This document shows, piece by piece, positions 5,856 to 48,632 of a stretch of DNA of 64,000 nucleotides; the first letter of the stretch is position 1; each line of letters begins with the position of its first letter. The stretch spans positions 2,182,578 to 2,246,577 of the forward strand of contig NC_018645.1 in assembly GCF_000307105.1 (NCBI RefSeq), written 5' to 3'. Both the position numbers and the translations under genes were made by a program. Source of the DNA: Desulfobacula toluolica Tol2 (GTDB lineage: Bacteria > Desulfobacterota > Desulfobacteria > Desulfobacterales > Desulfobacteraceae). The notes under the pieces were generated by a model. It was not told where the DNA came from. It made no database searches and saw nothing but the letters and a program-made list of their open reading frames with translations.

Positions 5856-8800
5856 ATGGATTTAACAAGGAAAATACCCTATAATTACACTTCAGCCGAC
5901 GATGATCAGATAATTAAACATCTTTTCGGATTTGATCTGCTCCAAGTCATTAAAAAACTGGAGTTTCAAAAAGATACCGGCAGATCCTCCAGGCTTTTGC
6001 ACAGATTTATGGGTGATTTGTTTATTATCCAGAGGAATCCGTTTCTTTTTCAGGAACTTGTTGAGGACCCATTGCTCAAAAAACGCTTGTTTCATGAGTT
6101 TAAAAATGACCTTGACTTGATTGGAAATCGTGTTCAGCAAGAAGATGTTCTTGTGGTTCTGGAACAGTGCAGACTTGAACTGAAAAGACTTGCAAAAAAA
6201 ATCAAAACCATCCGTTCTTATCAGAATAAAATTTTAAAGCAGTTGTCGCCTATTATAGGTAAAGGCAATATTTATTTTGATCCGTTTAATATTCTTGCCC
6301 ATGCAACCGATGCGACTGACTGGCGTCTTTATATGCCGCTTGCAGTTCTGCGTCCTGATAAAGAATCCCAGGTGCCAAGCCTTGTAAAAAAAATTGAAAG
6401 CCTGGGACTTCATATTATACCAAGGGGAGGCGGCACCGGTTTGACCGGAGGAGCAACTCCGTTGACCCAAACCTGTGTTATGCTCAATACTGAAAAATTG
6501 AATAAAATTTCAGATATTGAGTATGAAAAAGATAAAAACAATATCCCGTATGCTGCTATTACTCTTGAGGCAGGTGTCATTACACAGGATGCTATGGCAG
6601 CGGCAAAAAAACACGGACTTATCTTTGCTACAGACCCGACCAGTTCATGGGCATGCACCATTGGCGGGAATCTTGCGGAAAATGCAGGTGGGAAAACTGC
6701 TGTATTGTATGGCACTGCAATTGATAATGTCCTCTCCTATAAAATTACCATGCCGGATGCGGTATCCTATACGGTCAAACGAAAAGATCATCCCTTGAGA
6801 AAAACACTTCCCGAAGATATTGTTGTGTTTGATATTTATCATGAAGACGGTCAGTTGAGCCATACGGTTACCATAAACGGAAATCAAATGCGTAAAAAAG
6901 GTCTTGGCAAAGATGTTACCAATAAGACCTTGAACGGGCTTTTTGGACTTCAAAAAGAGGGTTGTGACGGGATCATAACTTCTGCCAGATTTATTTTATA
7001 TCCTGAATTTAAATTTAAAAAGACATTCTGCATTGAGTTTTTCGGCAATGATATGAGCCAGGCAGGGCTTGTTATTGCTGATATATGTAAGGCATTTGCA
7101 AATCATGATCCGGCTTTGATGGCACTGGAACATTTTGATGAAGAGTATGTTAAAGCCATTAATTATAAAACCAAAACATCCGTGGGAACAAGGCTTATTG
7201 CGGTTCTTCTCGTAGATATGGTTTCCAATGATCAACTTCGGCTGCAAACTGGGGTTGATACCCTTGAAAAAATTCTTGAGCCATATGACAAAACCGGTTT
7301 GAGTATTGCCGAAAATGACAGGCAATCCAAAAGGTTCTGGCAGGACAGGAAACGTTTAGGAGCAATCGCCGCCCATACCAATGCATTTAAATTAAATGAA
7401 GATATTGTTTTGCCCATTGATTCATTGGCTGAGTTTGCAAAATTTGTGGATCAGTATAATATTGAAGAAAAAAAATTCAACCAGACCCAGATCATTCAAA
7501 ATATTGTTCATTATCTGGATACGGCAATTCCTTTATCAGATCCTGAATTATTGCAAAAAAGGGTAGGGCAGGCAAAGGATCTTGCCTATAAAACAAGAAA
7601 AAAACTGGATATTGCTTCCAGAGACGCTCTTGAAGCCTATATCCATTCTAAAAATTTTTACCGGGAAGTCATTGGCAATCTGCGAGGTTATACGCTTGTA
7701 ATTGATAATGTGAACAGGATCTATGAAGAAACCAAGTCACGGCTGATTGTCATTGCTACCCATATGCATGCGGGTGATGGAAATGTTCATGTTAATATTC
7801 CTGTTTTACCCAATGACCGCCAAATGATGGAAAGAGCCAATCAAACAGCTGACAAAATAATGGAAAAAACCATTAGCTTGAAAGGAGTTGTTTCAGGTGA
7901 ACATGGAATTGGCATTACAAAATTTAAACATCTTGACCAGGAAACAATAGACGAGTTTACCGATTATAGAAAGAAAATTGATCCTAACGGATTAATGAAC
8001 CCTAACAAGCTTTTTGAACCGGATATTATTGAAAAGGTGTTTACCCCTTCTTTGAATCTGCTGGAACTTGAAGCCAGGATTTTAAAACACGGGTCTTTGT
8101 CAGAACTTGCCATTAATATTGCCAATTGCGTACGGTGTGGAAGATGCAAACCCAAGTGTCCGGTATTTGTTCCGGCCAAAAATATGTTTTTTCATCCGAG
8201 AAATAAGAATCTATCCATTGGTGCATTGATAGAGGCATTGCTGTATATAACCCAGAGAACACAATCCACTGGTTTTAAAGTTTTAAAAAATATTGAACAG
8301 ATTGCCGATCATTGTACCATTTGCCACAAGTGTTTTACTGAATGTCCCGTTAATATTGATTCTGGAAATATTGCCATCAAAGAGCGTGAAATCCTTGATA
8401 ATATTGGATTCAAGCATACACCCATATCAACTAATATAACTTTGAAATATCTTTCAACTAAAAATAAAATTTTAAATCCTGTTTTGAGAACCGCCCTTCT
8501 GGGTATTGGTGCAAGGGTTCAAAGGACAGCAGCAACTGTTTTATCGCCGTTGAAGAATGTTAAGGGGTTGAAGCAGACAAGAAATTTTCAGTTGCTTCGG
8601 ACACCTGTGGCAAAACCGGAAGGTAAAGCCTTAAGCAGGCTGTTACCCAATACCAATAAAAACCAGGCCATTATTCTTGAACCAGAAGGTGAAGCTCACA
8701 CAACTGTTTTTTATTTTCCCGGATGCGGAAGTGAACGGATATTTTCAAAAATATCAATGGCTTCTATTTTTTTATTGCTGGAAAATCATAACAGGGTTAT

Positions 8801-10193: not shown

Positions 10194-10361
10194 ATGAAAG
10201 ATAAAAAGAAAATTGATAAGGAACGGCAGATGTCCTATGACAGCTTGCCGCCGAGTATTAAAGAAAGCTTGACTGAAGAAGAAAAAGAAATTTTTCTTTA
10301 TGCTGAAGTGTGGCCTGATTCTTTGTTTGAAAAACTCGATGAATTTATTGTTAAAGATTAA
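10194..10361 (+). CDS. Small acidic hypothetical protein (55 residues)
   Basis: A short frame begins 32 bases after rsmE with AAGGAAC at good spacing. It encodes a charged, soluble protein with a basic N-terminus and an acidic middle (SLTEEEKEIFLYAEVW) predicted to form helices. No Cys pairs, signal or membrane segment are present. No family was recognised. A sigma70-like promoter for the next gene begins immediately after its stop codon, so this is probably the 3' end of the serC transcript. Confidence 0.6.
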   Translation: MKDKKKIDKERQMSYDSLPPSIKESLTEEEKEIFLYAEVWPDSLFEKLDEFIVKD

Positions 10362-10363
10362 AA

Positions 10364-10392
10364 TTGACAGTTTTGTGCGTACCCTCTAAATT
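10364..10392 (+). promoter_or_regulatory. Sigma70-like promoter for the cyclic-nucleotide-binding gene
   Basis: TTGACA at 10364-10369 is separated by 17 bases from TAAATT at 10387-10392. The start codon at 10428 lies about 30 bases beyond the expected start of transcription. Predicted only from consensus match. Confidence 0.5.
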
Positions 10393-10427
10393 TGTCAGCA
10401 GTTGAATTCATTATTAAAGGGGTATGA

Positions 10428-10919
10428 ATGGGTAACCCATTTGAAAAAAAAATTGATTATGAAAAATATGTAAGATATGCCCAGATACTTGAAAAAACAA
10501 AATGGGCCAATGAATTTTCCTGGGATCACATCCGTACAATTTGCCTTTATATCCATCCGGTAAGTGCAAAAAAAGGTGCGGTTATTTTCAAGGAAGGACA
10601 AAAAGAAGAAAGCCTTGGCATTATTGTTAAAGGATCAATTGATATCTTTAAGAAAAACAATGATCAAATTAAAAAGATAGCCAGACTTAAAAATTCACAA
10701 ACATTTGGAGAAATGGCTCTGCTGGATGGTGAGCCTCGATCTGCAACAGGCATAGCAGTAGAAGATTCTATTATTTTTTTTATTTCAAAAGAAAATTTAT
10801 TGGATATTGCCGAAGACCATCCCAAGTTAGGGTTTCAGATTTTATGGAAAATTTCAAAATTAATCAGTCAGCACCTGAGAAAAACCACAGGAAAATTAGT
10901 CGATTATATGGAAAAATAG
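10428..10919 (+). CDS. Cyclic nucleotide-binding domain protein without DNA-binding domain
   Basis: This 163-residue protein is essentially one CRP-type beta-barrel. The phosphate-binding cassette FGEMALLDGEPRSATG (about 97-112) has the conserved Glu and Arg that contact cyclic nucleotide, so binding capacity looks intact. After the C helix there is no helix-turn-helix and the protein ends, so it is not a transcription factor itself; an effector that docks on a partner is more likely. A class I adenylate cyclase gene lies about 1.2 kb downstream, making cAMP the probable ligand. The GGGG ribosome site lies about 8 bases before the ATG. It converges on the HDOD gene with only 4 bases between. 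Confidence 0.85.
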   Translation: MGNPFEKKIDYEKYVRYAQILEKTKWANEFSWDHIRTICLYIHPVSAKKGAVIFKEGQKEESLGIIVKGSIDIFKKNNDQIKKIARLKNSQTFGEMALLDGEPRSATGIAVEDSIIFFISKENLLDIAEDHPKLGFQILWKISKLISQHLRKTTGKLVDYMEK

Positions 10920-10923
10920 GATA

Positions 10924-11931
10924 CTAATCTTTTTTCGTATTCGTTTTTAGAATGGAAGAATGCTGCATGATTTTATGCTGTGACATTTTTAACAATTCAA
11001 CGGATTTTGAAGCCGGAATTTGAAGGCGGCTTTCATAACTTGCTGAAATTTTGATTATTTTTTCTCTGATATGGCTATCTCCCATGGAAAAATTAATATT
11101 GCACAATTCATTTGAGAATGCACAGATAGTGCGTTTAAATTCCTCTATGGTCATATCTTTTTTTAAAACATTGATATCTTCAACCGGTTTCATGGAATGG
11201 ATGATAGACTCGGGCAAATTCCATTTTGATACCATAAATCTTCCCAGCATGCCGTAGGATATGCCAATGATGGATTTGGAAGCCTGATCCCTTGTCAGGT
11301 GCTTTTCGTCTACAAGCAGTTCTATTTTGATAAAAATTTCTGGTGAAAATAAGGCAACCAGATATTCTCCAAAATCATACAGCATGGCACTGATTTGAAT
11401 GGCTTCTGCATCTTTGAGATCTTCATCAAGTGCTATTTGCCGGGCAATGATACTTCGTTGCAAGGCTCTGAGTGTTTTTATTTTTAAAACTTTAATGTTT
11501 GAAAGATCCTGCATATGGTCATAAATTTTAAGGCTGGCCGCTGCAAGTTTTATCTCTTGTGTTCCTAATATGATCATAGCTTCTGAAATTGATGTAATCC
11601 CCTTGTGTGAAAATTGACCATAAAATGAAGAATTTACAAGCTTTAATAATTTGATTGTAAGTGCCACATCCTTTAAAATAATATTGGCAATATCATTGGC
11701 GGAAGAGTACTTCATTTTTAATATTTGATTCACATTTTTAATTTGAGCGGAAAATGATAAGAACGAGGTATTATCAAGCATTTTTTTTAAAATGTATTTA
11801 ATAAAGGCTTTATAATTTATTTTGCCGTTGCTCGAGTTTAAGTTGCTTTGAAAAACAGACTGGTTATTTTCTTTGGATAAATCAATTACATCCAATTCAA
11901 TACCGGCATGAGGTGTTGCACAAGCTGTCAT
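10924..11931 (-). CDS. HDOD-domain signalling protein
   Basis: This 335-residue protein is built around an HDOD domain (about residues 55-255), a degenerate relative of HD phosphohydrolases. Typical segments are SSANDIANIILKDVALTIKLLKLVNSSFY and KGITSISEAMIILGTQEIKLA. The metal-binding HD pair is absent at the usual place, as in the family. HDOD proteins act as docking parts in signal pathways. It is transcribed divergently from the adenylate cyclase and has a GGAGAATAA ribosome site. No output domain is fused, so its exact role cannot be given. Confidence 0.85.
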   Translation of the reverse strand: MTACATPHAGIELDVIDLSKENNQSVFQSNLNSSNGKINYKAFIKYILKKMLDNTSFLSFSAQIKNVNQILKMKYSSANDIANIILKDVALTIKLLKLVNSSFYGQFSHKGITSISEAMIILGTQEIKLAAASLKIYDHMQDLSNIKVLKIKTLRALQRSIIARQIALDEDLKDAEAIQISAMLYDFGEYLVALFSPEIFIKIELLVDEKHLTRDQASKSIIGISYGMLGRFMVSKWNLPESIIHSMKPVEDINVLKKDMTIEEFKRTICAFSNELCNINFSMGDSHIREKIIKISASYESRLQIPASKSVELLKMSQHKIMQHSSILKTNTKKD

Positions 11932-12137: not shown

Positions 12138-14048
12138 ATGGTCAGAATGCGGGAGGCTGTTCGTAATTTAAGCACAAAAAAGTTAGAGATTTTTATAAAA
12201 ATACCGTTTTTGCTGCACATTAATTCTCCAGGATACCCGGGATTTATCGAGACAAGGGTTCCAGCTCACGGTATCTGGAATTTTGAGCAATCCGGGTTCT
12301 ATAATGAGATCATAAAAGCAAAAATTTTTCCAAAATCAATCATTGAAAATAATCAGATTGATAGCCCGGCAATTCTTGGATTTTATCATATCGGAAGCAT
12401 CGGCACCTTTACACAGTCAATTGGCTCGGATTTTGATTATTGGATCATCATAGATAAAAAAAAGTTTTCTAAAGAACGCTATGACGCCCTTGAAAAAAAA
12501 CTTGATGCCATATTGAGATACTGCAGGGAATCATATGATCAAAAAGTAAGCTTTTTTATAATGGATCAAAGGGAAATTAAAAACAATTGTTATGCTCCGT
12601 TTAAGGGTGAAGAAACGCTTACCGTACCCAAGATATTTTTAAAGGAAGAGTTTTACAGAACATTTTTGATGATTGCCGGCAAAATTCCTGTCTGGTCTGT
12701 TTTGCCCGGAAAAAAGGATTTGGAAAAAACGGGTATATGGAATTCGGATGGCTTAACCGCACAGATTTTATCCATGTATGATGATTTGATTGATCTTGGA
12801 CAGATAACTTCCATTCCCATTGAAGATGTCTTAAAAGGATTTTTGTGGCATATTTGTAAGTCCAAAGCTGATCCGATTAAAGCCGTTATCAAAGCCACAA
12901 TGATTTTTTGTTATGGGTTCAGCCAAAAGTTACCCCAAACTTTATTGTGTGAAAAAATAAAACAGGGATATTCAACAGCCGGGATTGACGATTATGGAGT
13001 TGATCCTTACAAGGCTCTCTTTGATCAAATCCTTGAATTTCATGACATTGAAGATCCCAAAGGACTTTCTTTGATAAAAAATGCTGTTTTCTTCAGGTTG
13101 TGCGAGTATCCTGATGTAAAACTTCCTGATAAAAATACTCCCAAAAGGTATTTGCTGGATAAATATATCCTCAGATGGAAGTTGAATAAAAATCAGGTAA
13201 AAAAGCTGTTATCGTATTCAAACTGGTCAGAGTCGGAAAAACTGGTTCTGGAAAAAACATATATTAACAGGCTTGCCCAGATGTATAATTATGCTATTCG
13301 GAGAATAGGCAAGATAAATAATCGTTTTGACAGCAGAACTGAAAAAAGAAACTGGATTATTTTAAGAAATAAAACAAAAGAGAGACTGCGAAAAAGTGCT
13401 GATAAAATTTGTGAATGTTCAACCTATTTAAAGCGAAGACATATTTTGTGCCTGGATATCATAAAAAAAACAAATTTATGGGAAGTTAATTTTCAAACTC
13501 AAACCGGTCAAAGAATGGATAAGATTTATAAGCATTCCAATTTCTTAGGAGTTCTTGGGTGGATTTTAGAAAATCAGCTTTACCGGCGACAAACAGCATC
13601 CATAAGCCTTCATACAAATTTTTTGCTGTTTGAATCATCTGATACTGCCATTACTGCAGATACGCTATATATGGCATTTCAGCCCTTAAAGCCCTTGTCG
13701 GATTCTTGCTATGATCATGATGCATCATGGTCAAAAATGATGATTCTTTTATTCTATGATACTCCCGGTATCATTAAGGCTGAGTTTCTGATTTCCAATA
13801 ATTGGGGTGAGTTATTTCTTGACAGTATCGAGTTTGCACTAACAAACAACAGGCAGGTGCAATGCAGCCAAATGGCAAATCTCATGTTAAAGTACTCAGA
13901 TGAAAATTTAAGATTGTTTATTTTTCAATTTTCCGATACCCATGATCCTGATATTGTTTGTCAGCTTAAAAAAGCATATTATGAACTGGCTTGCCCGGAC
14001 AGTGCTGCCATGAGCATAAAGAAAAAACCATATTTAGACAGATTGTAG
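12138..14048 (+). CDS. cyaA: Class I adenylate cyclase (start uncertain, probably upstream)
   Basis: The protein matches the catalytic region of enterobacterial-type class I adenylate cyclases, which make cAMP from ATP. GSIGTFTQSIGSDFDYW (about residues 86-102) carries the paired catalytic Asp residues, and VSFFIMDQ, LKEEFYRTFLMIAGK and GFLWHICKSKADPIKAVIK follow in family order. It is 636 residues from the first ATG, shorter than the 850 of E. coli, with a short C-terminal part. Family-like sequence (KIQIEKNRFAFSNYN) continues in frame upstream of this ATG back to a stop at 12045-12047, with no ATG, GTG or TTG there, so translation may start at a rare codon, for example the ATC at 12060 behind AAAAGG. 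It probably supplies cAMP to the binding protein at 10428. Confidence 0.88.
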   Translation: MVRMREAVRNLSTKKLEIFIKIPFLLHINSPGYPGFIETRVPAHGIWNFEQSGFYNEIIKAKIFPKSIIENNQIDSPAILGFYHIGSIGTFTQSIGSDFDYWIIIDKKKFSKERYDALEKKLDAILRYCRESYDQKVSFFIMDQREIKNNCYAPFKGEETLTVPKIFLKEEFYRTFLMIAGKIPVWSVLPGKKDLEKTGIWNSDGLTAQILSMYDDLIDLGQITSIPIEDVLKGFLWHICKSKADPIKAVIKATMIFCYGFSQKLPQTLLCEKIKQGYSTAGIDDYGVDPYKALFDQILEFHDIEDPKGLSLIKNAVFFRLCEYPDVKLPDKNTPKRYLLDKYILRWKLNKNQVKKLLSYSNWSESEKLVLEKTYINRLAQMYNYAIRRIGKINNRFDSRTEKRNWIILRNKTKERLRKSADKICECSTYLKRRHILCLDIIKKTNLWEVNFQTQTGQRMDKIYKHSNFLGVLGWILENQLYRRQTASISLHTNFLLFESSDTAITADTLYMAFQPLKPLSDSCYDHDASWSKMMILLFYDTPGIIKAEFLISNNWGELFLDSIEFALTNNRQVQCSQMANLMLKYSDENLRLFIFQFSDTHDPDIVCQLKKAYYELACPDSAAMSIKKKPYLDRL

Positions 14049-29001: not shown

Positions 29002-29170
29002 ATTGATTAGGCTTAATCAAGAAAAATATCTGAGTGCCTCATAACATTATAACATTAGATGGGTATGTGTAAGAAACTTGTTAAACGCGGAGTCTTCCGG
29101 AAATTGGCAGCTAAAAAAAGGACGGTGGACTTTATTCTGGAAAACGGCCTTAACATCAAGCCTAATCAAT
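29002..29170. repeat. 13-bp inverted repeat pair
   Basis: ATTGATTAGGCTT at 29002-29014 is the exact reverse complement of AAGCCTAATCAAT at 29158-29170. The left arm itself continues into TAATCAA to make a smaller hairpin (TTGATTA-GGCT-TAATCAA). No flanking target duplication is obvious. Confidence 0.5.
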
Positions 29171-29205
29171 CATTTTCTATTAATGAATTAGGCTGGTGGA
29201 AATAA
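29059..29205 (+). CDS. Small basic hypothetical protein (48 residues), doubtful
   Basis: The frame (ATG at 29059 or 29065) encodes a strongly basic N-terminal half (KKLVKRGVFRKLAAKKR), then DFILENGLNI and ends in ELGWWK. The amphipathic, Lys-rich beginning would suit nucleic-acid or membrane binding. There is no convincing ribosome site (ACATTAG). It lies between inverted repeat arms. No relatives were recognised; it could be a relic. Confidence 0.3.
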   Translation: MGMCKKLVKRGVFRKLAAKKRTVDFILENGLNIKPNQSFSINELGWWK

Positions 29206-29305
29206 GGTCAAATGACAAAATGAAGAAGGCATTGGTTTGGTATTTATCAATTGATAAAAGTGATATGGGACTGTGTATGGACACATAAGAAAGGTTCTTT
29301 GGTCT

Positions 29306-29337
29306 GGAGGGGAGGTCACTGTTGGGACTTCCCCTCC
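29306..29337. terminator. GC-rich hairpin, possible terminator of the leftward operon
   Basis: GGAGGGGAGGTC at 29306-29317 pairs with GACTTCCCCTCC at 29326-29337 with one G-U wobble. It stands 38 bases past the stop of the HdrD-like gene. Neither strand has an immediate T-run, so a factor-independent role is uncertain. Confidence 0.4.
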
Positions 29338-29375
29338 GATCCAATATTCATTTTTTAGCTTGATGGTTTTGGAGG

Positions 29376-30698
29376 TTAAAGAGCCGTTTCCGGGTGAAAT
29401 ACGTTAACATCTTTCAAGTCATCTCCCAGATATTCCCGCTCATTTGGCCCTAATATTCCTAATGACAGGCAAATCAAAGTCCATAGATGAACTACAGGGT
29501 AATTCCCACCATAATGCTCGCTCAGTTCATGGATCTGGGCATGACAATTATGACAGCCTGCAATGCAATAATCGGCCCCTGTGGCCTTGATTTGATTGTC
29601 TTTTAATCTTCCGTATTCGAGTCGCTCCTCTTTAAACCCTGATTGGAGAAAACCGCCGCCGCCGCCGCAACAATAATTATTAGATTTGTTTGGCTGCATA
29701 TCTACAAAATTTTCTTCTCCAACAACCGATTTTACAACAAAACGCAAATCATCGGCAATGGGATCACCATAGCTTTTTCTGACAATTTGACATGGATCCT
29801 GTACGGTAAATTTTATTTTAAGATCTTTATTCCAATCGGAATTGACCTTTAGTTTTCCTTCACGGATCCATTTTGCATAATATTCATATATGTTTTTAAT
29901 TTCAAAGTTATGCTCAAGGTTGTATTTTTTCACTCCGGCCCGGACTGAAAATGTTACGTGACCTCATTCGGTATTGAGAAAGGTCTTACACCCAAGCTTG
30001 TTGGCCTGATCCACTGTTGTTCCGGTTACCTTTTTCCATGCATCGTCATCCGCCAGGAACATGCAATAGTTTTCACCTGCCCATCCTCGACTGCCATAGG
30101 TCCAGTCAACGCCAGCCAAGTGAAGAATTTTCCATTGGGGTATCATTTCGTCAGGTTCTGTCACAGGTTCCCTGGAATTCTGGTTCAGAAAAAATTCAGC
30201 ACCTTCTTTATCAATAGGGGCCTGCATATCTGCGAATTCAGGCTGAGCCTCCCTGTATTCTTCCAATACATCACCGACGACAAATTCAAAATCCTCCGGA
30301 GAGGCTCCCATGGCACTTGTACTTTCATTTCTCAGGGCCATGTCACAGGACCCAAGGATACCTGTAGGTCTTTCTTCTCTGGGGCGAAGTGCTCTGGCAT
30401 TAAAGACCAATTGGGGGATATCGATCTGCATGGGACATACATAAATGCAACGCTGGCACATGGTACACATCCAGGGCCAGTCAGATTTGGCGATTTCATC
30501 ATCCATACCTAACGCAGCCATTCGAAGAAATTTTCTGGGATCCATATTATCAAGTCCTGTGGCAGGACACCCTGAGGCGCAAGCGCCGCAAGTTAAACAA
30601 GCACTTAAATTGCCGCCTTCAGGCAGCAATTCTTTGACTTTGTTCAAAAAAATATTTTTTCGGTTTTTATTTCCAAGCCTAATGACAGCTTCTGCCAT
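29376..30698 (-). CDS. HdrD-like CCG-domain Fe-S oxidoreductase, putative selenoprotein (in-frame TGA read as selenocysteine)
   Basis: Two ORFs in the same frame, separated only by a TGA at 29964-29966 (codon 245) and 10 sense codons, together make a 440-residue protein. The N-terminal part has two [4Fe-4S] motifs (CLTCGACASGCP, CTMCQRCIYVCP). The C-terminal part has the CCG features QDPCQIVRKS, NYCCGGGGGF and CHNCHAQ. The TGA falls in TE-U-GHVTFSVRAG exactly where the paralogue TmcB in this window has GECGHAFRS, so Sec replaces a conserved cluster Cys. A SECIS-like hairpin follows. The start has AAAGGAA. It probably handles thiol/disulfide or quinone electrons; substrate unknown. Confidence 0.85.
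29927..29966 (-). promoter_or_regulatory. Bacterial SECIS-like element after in-frame TGA
   Basis: Twelve bases after the TGA (29964-29966), the mRNA can fold as TTTTCA-G-TCCG-GGC-CGGA-G-TGAAAA (29951 to 29927): 6 pairs, one G/G mismatch, 4 pairs and a 3-base loop beginning with G. The loop begins 24 bases after the TGA, within the 16-37 base window usual for bacterial SECIS elements. Confidence 0.7.
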
Positions 30699-30717: not shown

Positions 30718-31062
30718 TTAATGGTAATCGTGGGTACCTACAACAACACCAATTCCGGTTTTCTTTTCTATGATGTCTGCCAGGTCCTTTGCACCGGTAT
30801 AGGGACATCCCGGAACGGCATTGGCCAGGCAGGAACTCAAATATATTTTATCAGGTTTGATTTCAGACAATTTCATTGCCATGCCAATACTGGGAACAAC
30901 GGTTCGTCCGGGGCATTCACATTTGACAAAACCAATAACCTGGGATGGATTTTCGAATGTGCCATCGCCCTGTGCGGCTGCCTTCAAGCAACGCCATTCG
31001 CCCGGGCAGCCATATCCCTGGTCCATATATGAACCGCATCCGACAACCACTACTTTTTCCAT
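30718..31062 (-). CDS. CGGC-domain protein
   Basis: This 114-residue protein starts with KVVVVGCGSYMDQGYGCPG and has the Cys-rich plan of the CGGC domain, with CECPGR in the middle and LSSCLANAVPGCPY near the end. The domain is thought to bind metal or take part in electron transfer, but its function is not established. The strong AAGGAGAGG ribosome site precedes the ATG. It is the first gene of the minus-strand pair and lies 19 bases upstream of the HdrD-like selenoprotein, which suggests a shared job. Confidence 0.85.
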   Translation of the reverse strand: MEKVVVVGCGSYMDQGYGCPGEWRCLKAAAQGDGTFENPSQVIGFVKCECPGRTVVPSIGMAMKLSEIKPDKIYLSSCLANAVPGCPYTGAKDLADIIEKKTGIGVVVGTHDYH

Positions 31063-47242: not shown

Positions 47243-47290
47243 ATGCTAAAGCCAATGACAAGCAAAGGAAATGATAACCAAAGGAAATGA
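47243..47290 (+). CDS. 15-codon leader frame before tmcB (displaced original start?)
   Basis: A very strong ribosome site (CCAAAGGAGACA, the same as before tmcC) precedes ATG 47243. The frame encodes MLKPMTSKGNDNQRK and stops at 47288-47290, inside the tmcB start region. Removing one copy of the 16-bp repeat here joins it in frame to tmcB. It is either the remnant of the former tmcB start or a coupling leader. Confidence 0.5.
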   Translation: MLKPMTSKGNDNQRK

Positions 47291-47294
47291 CAAA
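47263..47294 (+). repeat. 16-bp tandem duplication at the tmcB start
   Basis: CAAAGGAAATGATAAC (47263-47278) and CAAAGGAAATGACAAA (47279-47294) match at 14 of 16 places. The second copy gives an AAAGGA ribosome site 9 bases before ATG 47295. Confidence 0.75.
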
Positions 47295-48632
47295 ATGGAT
47301 GAGTCCAATATGGTGAATGAAAAAAATACGGATGAAGCAGTTGAGGCGGGACTGGCAAGGCTGACACCGGAAAAAATAAAAAGCACCATTAACCAGGTGC
47401 TTCAGGATGAGACAGGTCCTAAATTTAAAGCTTATGTTGAGACTTGCATGCATTGCGGTCTGTGTGCGGAAGCATGTGTCTATTTTCTTTCAAATGATCG
47501 TGATCCGACATACTCACCTGCAGGTAAGGTAAAACAGACCATTTGGGAAATGCTTAAAAAAAAAGGGGAGGTCTCAACGGATTTTCTCAGAAGGGCGGTT
47601 CATATTGCCCATACGGAATGCAATGTCTGTAAACGTTGTGCCATGTATTGTCCCTTTGGTATTGATATTGCCTATCTGATGCTGCTGGTCCGAAGAATTT
47701 GCCATAAACTTGAAATAACACCGTTATATATTCAAGATACGGTGAACAGCCATTCCGCCACCATGAACCAGATGTGGGTCAAGGAGGATGAATGGATTGA
47801 TACCCTTCAATGGCAGGAAGAGGATGCAAGAGAAGAGTTTGAAAACCTGAGAATCCCTTTGGATAAAGTGGGTTCTGATATCATGTATTCTGTTATCGCA
47901 CCTGAACCAAAATTCCAGGCAGGATTAATTTATCAGACCGCCACCATAATGCATGCCGCAGGCATTGACTGGACCATGCCTTCAAGTCCGGGTTGGGATA
48001 ATAGTAATATGGCCATGTATACAGGCGACAATGAAATTTCAGGCCGCATTGCCAGGGCATTTTATGAGACAGCCGCACGGTTGAAGGTAAAACGCATTGT
48101 CATGGGAGAGTGCGGACATGCATTCCGGTCAATTTATGATATGGGAAACCGTTGGATCGGCTGGTCTATGCCGCCCTTTGAGGTTGTTCATGCACTGGAA
48201 TTTTATCATGAATTGCTGACATCGGGCCGGATCATGATTGGTGAAAAATTTAAAAAGACCGTTACACTCCATGATCCCTGCAATGTTTCCAGGGGAAGGG
48301 GATTGCACGATATGGCAAGACAAGTGACAAACATGTTGTGTGAGTCTTTTATAGAGATGACTCCGAACCGGGAACATAATTATTGCTGCGGCGCAGGTGG
48401 AGGTGTGATCAATTGCGGCCCTCCCTACAAAGGGGAACGTATGGTGAACAACAGGGTAAAGGCTGAACAATTAAAGGCAACCGGTGCCGAGGTTTTAATC
48501 GCTCCCTGCCACAATTGCCACAGCGGACTTGAAGATATTGTTGAGCATTATGATCTGAACATGGAAGTCAAATTCCTGGGAGATATTATTTTTGAAACCA
48601 TGGAAAAGAAAATTTTTAAACCGGGAGATTAA
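47295..48632 (+). CDS. tmcB: Tmc complex HdrD-like Fe-S subunit
   Basis: TmcB is the cytoplasmic-side Fe-S protein of Tmc, related to HdrD of heterodisulfide reductase. The 445-residue protein has two [4Fe-4S] motifs (CMHCGLCAEAC, CNVCKRCAMYCP) and two CCG-type sets (GECGHAFRS; HDPCNVSRG, NYCCGAGGGV and CHNCHSG), which hold the special cluster. ATG 47295 is chosen for its AAAGGA spacing; an in-frame ATG at 47271 is possible but its ribosome site is too close. It is the Cys paralogue of the Sec protein at 29376-30698. Confidence 0.92.
   Translation: MDESNMVNEKNTDEAVEAGLARLTPEKIKSTINQVLQDETGPKFKAYVETCMHCGLCAEACVYFLSNDRDPTYSPAGKVKQTIWEMLKKKGEVSTDFLRRAVHIAHTECNVCKRCAMYCPFGIDIAYLMLLVRRICHKLEITPLYIQDTVNSHSATMNQMWVKEDEWIDTLQWQEEDAREEFENLRIPLDKVGSDIMYSVIAPEPKFQAGLIYQTATIMHAAGIDWTMPSSPGWDNSNMAMYTGDNEISGRIARAFYETAARLKVKRIVMGECGHAFRSIYDMGNRWIGWSMPPFEVVHALEFYHELLTSGRIMIGEKFKKTVTLHDPCNVSRGRGLHDMARQVTNMLCESFIEMTPNREHNYCCGAGGGVINCGPPYKGERMVNNRVKAEQLKATGAEVLIAPCHNCHSGLEDIVEHYDLNMEVKFLGDIIFETMEKKIFKPGD

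Follow-up and report, generated by a model that had tools for sequence, protein, structure and literature searches.

A selenoprotein gene for an HdrD-like Fe-S protein in Desulfobacula toluolica Tol2, and the predicted place of its selenocysteine beside a noncubane cluster

Selenoproteins resembling HdrD-like iron-sulfur (Fe-S) proteins have been on record in Deltaproteobacteria since 2006, when a survey described an Fe-S oxidoreductase (GlpC) family with five selenocysteine (Sec) members, encoded in an operon with hdrA and frhD (PMC1794560). A 2026 review lists it as Fe-S oxidoreductase-like (GlpC), with the motif UGH and the identifier PTHR43551 (PMC13188914). In the marine sulfate reducer Desulfobacterium autotrophicum HRM2, HdrD4, a soluble HdrC-HdrB fusion, contains Sec (PMC2702500). 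Here we describe an HdrD-like gene of Desulfobacula toluolica Tol2, contained in a stretch of 64,000 nucleotides (contig NC_018645.1, positions 2,182,578 to 2,246,577), which we call the window and whose numbering is used below. By its sequence, this gene is a member of the already known UGH family: the UGH motif lies within an Fe-S/CCG protein, the family representative being compared by description. An earlier note on this DNA had stated that selenoproteins of this broad type occur in some deltaproteobacteria, in agreement with the 2006 survey (PMC1794560).

The window protein shares with the family the Sec in a UGH motif, the Fe-S protein context and the occurrence in Deltaproteobacteria (PMC1794560, PMC9312934, PMC13188914), whereas the family genes are reported together with hdrA and frhD selenoprotein genes and the window copy stands with a gene for a CGGC protein. 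HdrD4 of D. autotrophicum, compared by description and not by sequence, is likewise a Sec-containing HdrC-HdrB fusion (PMC2702500). The TmcB and HmcF of the same genome have the domain order, the CGH motif and a five-Cys CCG site in common with the HdrD-like protein. They are 28% and 29% identical to it, respectively, and carry Cys, not Sec, at the site. The window itself encodes a TmcB (open reading frame (ORF) 47271-48632; 825.9 bits, cut-off 735). Membership of the HdrD-like protein in TmcB, HmcF or DsrK, the last compared through its NCBIfam profile only, was ruled out by scores of 169.9, 168 and 124.5 bits against cut-offs of 735, 750 and 400. A literature search of open-licence papers, judged by titles, the beginnings of abstracts and passages of the papers cited, returned no account placing the Sec of the UGH family relative to the clusters.

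The gene, its interrupting codon and a hairpin resembling a bacterial Sec insertion sequence (bSECIS) are located as follows.

30698-29376, minus strand: gene for a Sec-containing HdrD-like protein of 440 residues, ending in TAA, open except for one TGA
29966-29964, minus strand: UGA codon 245, read as selenocysteine on the basis of the frame and the Sec/Cys comparison with homologues
29949-29929, minus strand: bSECIS-like apical hairpin, nine-pair stem with one G-G mismatch, seven core pairs at 29947-29931

The minus-strand frame 30698-29376 is open for 244 codons upstream and 195 codons downstream of the TGA; on the plus strand over 29376-30698, the frame tested contained many stops and was not open. 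Gene finding with table 11 cuts the frame into ORFs of 244 and 185 amino acids. Both halves belong to a single protein, with an HdrC-like domain at residues 30-105, a CCG domain at 298-389 and full-length relatives. A scan of the window for TGA-extended frames (arms of at least 60 and at least 50 codons) returned 15. In the HdrD-like frame, the shorter of the two arms measures 195 codons, by far the largest value, followed by 114; a check for homology on both sides of the TGA covered this frame alone. The earlier note's single frame with a lone TGA at 29964-29966 and HdrD- or TmcB-like protein on both sides was thus confirmed by domains and full-length relatives, and the strand, which it had left unstated, is minus.

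We compared the codon at this position among homologues. As the earlier note had pointed out, the TGA stands at the conserved Cys of the GECGH motif, GE-C-GHAF of the window TmcB aligning with TE-U-GHVTF. The genome, a single contig of 5,197,905 bases, holds four close copies of the gene including that of the window, three with TGA and one with TGC at the codon 245 position: the window copy has TGA, a 68% identical copy TGA, a 64% identical copy TGC and a 59% identical copy TGA. Such a Sec/Cys exchange within one genome is hard to explain except by Sec decoding. A scan of named genomes confirmed at least 355 relatives, and the best 80, which were kept, all have Sec at the motif (80/80). Together with 30 loci from a class search, these make up 110 loci, some of which are the same gene in both collections. 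The main match has Sec at 109 of them and Cys at one, the genome's own Cys paralogue; the named locus L066 carries an additional Cys paralogue. Matches were found in 224 of 291 class genomes at E≤1e-100 (67 without) and in 101 of 395 phylum genomes at E≤1e-90 (294 without). The phylum matches occupy 143 places. An in-frame TGA occurs in 120 of them, two of which contain additional stops; 22 are stop-free and one has TAG and TAA. In 20 fetched stretches with 21 homologous genes, TGA occupies the codon 245 position in 12 and Cys in nine, so the exchange that the earlier note proposed to look for occurs at exactly this codon. At least eight Sec/Cys changes are required on a tree built from 95 rows, 80 of them Sec and 15 Cys; to thin it, alternate Sec rows among the 80 named loci were omitted, together with a few loci that were duplicate, partial or split.

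The decoding machinery, also on the earlier note's list of checks, is fully present. The genome encodes SelA, SelB and SelD, the latter two scoring above cut-off and the selD gene itself containing a TGA. A tRNA-Sec with anticodon UCA scores 76.5 bits (gathering score 47).

The hairpin bears an apical loop GGC at 29940-29938, the first base being G, 24-26 bases downstream of the UGA. Folded as a single sequence, it scored slightly above chance (z -2.62, -1.35, -1.99 and -2.55 in four windows), and an Rfam search of the window returned no family at gathering score. As the folding signal was weak, we relied on comparison across relatives. The comparison used 131 distinct downstream sequences (116 Sec, 15 Cys), after 22 of 153 aligned segments had been excluded for identical 54-base stretches, an absent site or a score below 150 bits. 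Sec sequences form a mean of 6.76 of the seven core pairs (seven in 100, six in 11, five or fewer in 5) and Cys sequences a mean of 3.4 (six in two, seven in none), so that six or seven pairs are formed by 111/116 Sec versus 2/15 Cys sequences. G is the first loop base in all 116 Sec sequences and in 7 of the 15 Cys sequences. Sliding the partner strand lowered the Sec mean to 0.65-3.01 pairs. Synonymous shuffles gave 3.94/7 under a uniform null and 5.39/7 (maximum 5.63) with the family's own codons, the latter null lying nearer to the observed 6.76. The window copy itself forms six of seven core pairs, a number reached by 0.7% of its uniform synonymous shuffles, and shares its G-G mismatch with others among the 105 close Sec sequences (7/105, window copy counted).

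Of these 105 sequences, 60 close the loop with G-C and 37 with U-A; in the sequences inspected, the change between the two accompanies an Arg/Leu codon change plus a silent third position of an Ala codon. The covariation test used 70 of the 80 Sec rows; eight whose locus lacked a hairpin entry or had several distinct ones were excluded, as were two with a base 25 other than G or T. Five independent pairs on supported branches gave a median p of 0.0625 (range 0.0625-0.25), and the partner shifted in the same direction in a mean of 4.8 of 5, never in the opposite one. We regard this apparent covariation as supportive and not as proof. The SECIS-like hairpin with a three-base loop starting with G, which the earlier note had seen after the TGA, is therefore upheld, mainly by the comparison of relatives. 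Judged from the UGA at a position that exchanges Cys and Sec, the SECIS hairpin and the decoding machinery, the HdrD-like gene is a selenoprotein gene in which TGA codon 245 is read as Sec.

We then placed Sec245 relative to the predicted Fe-S clusters, using the following features.

30384..30611, minus strand: HdrC-like domain, residues 30-105, with eight conserved Cys that presumably bind two cubane [4Fe-4S] clusters
29829..30200, minus strand: first CCG domain, degenerate, bearing Sec245, residues 167-290, border approximate
29454..29828, minus strand: second CCG domain, residues 291-415, five-Cys noncubane site intact, border approximate
29958..29960, minus strand: codon of His247, which aligns with EtfD His583
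30063..30065, minus strand: codon of Cys212, which is conserved only within the close family; the distant Sec tier has G or A there

Pfam detected 4Fe-4S dicluster domains around residues 30-93 and a single CCG domain (298-389); in the PDB, residues 30-105 are related in sequence to HdrC, and the stretch of about 287-415 is related to HdrB. The noncubane site consists of C303, C343, C344, C382 and C385, all invariant in alignments of 44 and 28 rows. Two five-Cys CCG sites, as in HdrB or HdrD with two noncubane clusters, were not found; only the second site is complete. The HdrB of HdrABC (5odc, 7bkb, 8rvu) has two noncubane clusters, whereas the HdrD-like protein keeps the second five-Cys site only. 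The HdrB cysteines considered here are Cys9, Cys41, Cys42 and Cys78, with Cys78 presumably an Fe-S ligand at the position aligned with Sec245. The source that describes the two clusters of HdrB gives the numbers Cys81 and Cys234 (PMC13083937). Mycobacterial EtfD (9ojn), a membrane protein, contains a linear [3Fe-4S] cluster, D1 (PMC13083937). The EtfD residue aligned with Sec245 is Cys581, a ligand of D1 that belongs to the first CCG domain; the EtfD noncubane cluster is filled by five Cys and His583, the latter a cluster ligand (PMC13083937). In the HdrD-like protein, the ligand places of D1 are lost except for the Sec/Cys position and possibly Cys212; the first CCG site keeps only position 245 and, in close relatives, perhaps C212. 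The earlier note had taken Sec as a substitute for one of the Cys ligands of the noncubane cluster. As written, this found no support, the five ligand Cys being ordinary and invariant; Sec245 sits in the other, degenerate CCG domain, at a ligand place of a cluster whose other ligand positions are mostly lost.

The product is probably a soluble HdrD-like electron-transfer selenoprotein, whose free selenolate, lying next to the noncubane cluster, would serve in disulfide or persulfide chemistry. In the N-terminal domain, electrons would traverse the two cubane clusters, and in the second CCG domain the single noncubane [4Fe-4S] cluster. Sec245 would take a ligand site whose first-domain cluster has been lost; His247, the counterpart of the EtfD ligand, is two residues away, and it is from the position of Sec245 that we place a lone selenolate facing the remaining noncubane cluster. 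The selenolate would then make or break a disulfide (or persulfide) of a thiol partner, which for the window protein might, as a guess, be the CGGC protein. In many relatives, the Sec-HdrD family appears to take the place of HdrBC in gene sets for HdrA, MvhD and MetFV (methylene-tetrahydrofolate (methylene-THF) reductase). For the MetFV-HdrABC-MvhD of Moorella, a second acceptor differing from ferredoxin has been predicted and is not named in the source (PMC8515935).

Several points weigh against this proposal. A profile-profile alignment by hhalign with three two-CCG HdrD-type proteins puts U245 on the second Cys of a CxxC, and two of the alignments that give the EtfD register are interdependent, profile A3 including two-CCG HdrD-type proteins. 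We retained the EtfD register, as a matter of judgement, because the His and the next aromatic residue match and because a TmcB-only search and the pseudo-symmetry of the model agree. A profile without two-CCG proteins still matched 9ojn by score (E 7.5e-11). The His-bound noncubane cluster of EtfD is called non-catalytic by its authors (PMC13083937), which speaks against disulfide chemistry there. The window copy has neither hdrA nor metF alongside, and CGGC adjoins the gene at only 13 of 110 loci. Finally, genomes that use Sec, among them that of D. toluolica, also encode Cys versions, so the fold can do without Sec.

Among the other explanations, a true stop at the TGA (a pseudogene, two genes or a regulatory truncation) accounts for the split made by conventional gene finding (244 and 185 amino acids). 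It is extremely improbable, as the main match has the same TGA at 109 of 110 loci, the SECIS pairs are preserved relative to synonymous shuffles, the downstream half is conserved as protein with invariant cluster Cys, and the sel genes of the genome are complete. We rejected the pseudogene or true-stop reading on this joint conservation of TGA, SECIS and downstream protein. A direct ligation of the noncubane cluster iron by Sec245, which would be a natural Sec-ligated Fe-S cluster and comes near the view of the earlier note, fits the alignment of Sec245 with an Fe-S ligand, C581 of EtfD, and the presence of a cluster-ligand His two residues away. However, C581 serves the other cluster (D1) in EtfD, whose noncubane cluster is already filled by five Cys and His583, and all of these positions are conserved in the HdrD-like protein; we consider direct ligation unlikely. 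Slightly less probable again is a selenenyl-sulfide redox pair of Sec245 and Cys212, acting as a two-electron relay beside the cluster. In the 44-row close alignment, conservation of Cys212 reaches at least 90%, and its ENYC resembles the NNYCC of the second domain, but the distant Sec tier keeps Sec with G or A at 212, so that Cys212 is not needed in general.

Beyond the free selenolate that we favour, we tentatively entertain a wider idea: a single Sec may replace an entire Fe-S cluster, yielding a two-centre Se/[4Fe-4S] disulfide or persulfide catalyst that would form the acceptor-side module of HdrA-MvhD-MetFV in sulfate reducers. It draws on an analogy with HdrB, which holds a disulfide between two noncubane clusters, and we think it may well be wrong.

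The neighbourhood of the gene contributes two further features.

30718..31062, minus strand: CGGC-domain protein gene, directly upstream of the HdrD-like gene with 19 bases between
29298..29344, minus strand: strong hairpin (-24.8 kcal/mol, z -3.49), possible end of a two-gene transcript

This hairpin has no long T run, and a terminator scan made no call there. The pairing with a CGGC gene noted earlier holds and is shared by the 13 loci mentioned above (9/80 named, 4/30 class-search); contigs often end nearby, so absence is weakly tested. Seven Cys are invariant in 14 aligned CGGC sequences, and the nine named CGGC-paired homologues are 86-93% identical to the window protein. A candidate small frame of 48 codons lies on the plus strand at 29059-29205, in the gap behind the HdrD-like gene.

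At a threshold of 30% identity, at least 26 of the 80 named loci, many on short contigs, have hdrA, mvhD and metV matches on the strand of the gene. The gene lies between mvhD and metV in 12, upstream of both in 12 (mostly with about 1 kb of unexamined DNA between it and hdrA) and downstream of both in two. The window copy does not adjoin hdrA, mvhD and metV and hence does not count as a MetFV-HdrA-MvhD subunit gene by that measure. A paralogue in the same genome (L032) does, with the order metF - Sec-hdrD - hdrL-like - mvhD - metV. The L032 mvhD (12214-12639) has an in-frame TGA at 12262-12264 in a CCQYU motif and is probably a second selenoprotein of this metF-hdrL operon.

Other copies showed arrangements of their own. 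The 68% identical paralogue (L031:5141-6457) adjoins genes read as parB, parA and ispH, an odd but conserved neighbourhood, a match to the L031 parB being present at 11 of 30 class-search loci. In L157, a close (10350-11642) and a distant (6279-7541) Sec-HdrD-like gene lie on the minus strand about 3 kb apart, which suggests two Sec modules within one gene cluster. Two Desulfamplus genomes carry tandem Sec genes (L083, 7001-8317 and 8779-10095; L088, 1102-2418 and 2837-4153), one gene of each pair having the window-type UGHVTF and the other the paralogue-type UGHELF. A member on the chromosome of a metagenome-assembled genome (L091:7001-8377) is split across two frames, the break lying immediately ahead of the Sec motif, perhaps through a sequencing error. 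Two HdrD-like genes far apart in the D. toluolica genome (L017, 456695-457750; L018, 5161068-5162123) have equal scores and identical aligned sequences, and probably reflect a recent duplication.

The window gene is thus an ordinary member of a widespread, listed and functionally unexplained selenoprotein family. What is gained is a definite position for its Sec in the structure, predicted at a lost cluster-ligand site beside the noncubane cluster, which makes the role of Sec testable. The Cys-Gly-His motif is shared with TmcB and HmcF, which suggests that lessons from this family may extend to the membrane complexes of sulfate respiration. As for the pathway, the recurrent link with MetFV-HdrA-MvhD genes suggests acetyl-CoA oxidation in these bacteria, at its methylene-THF reductase step.
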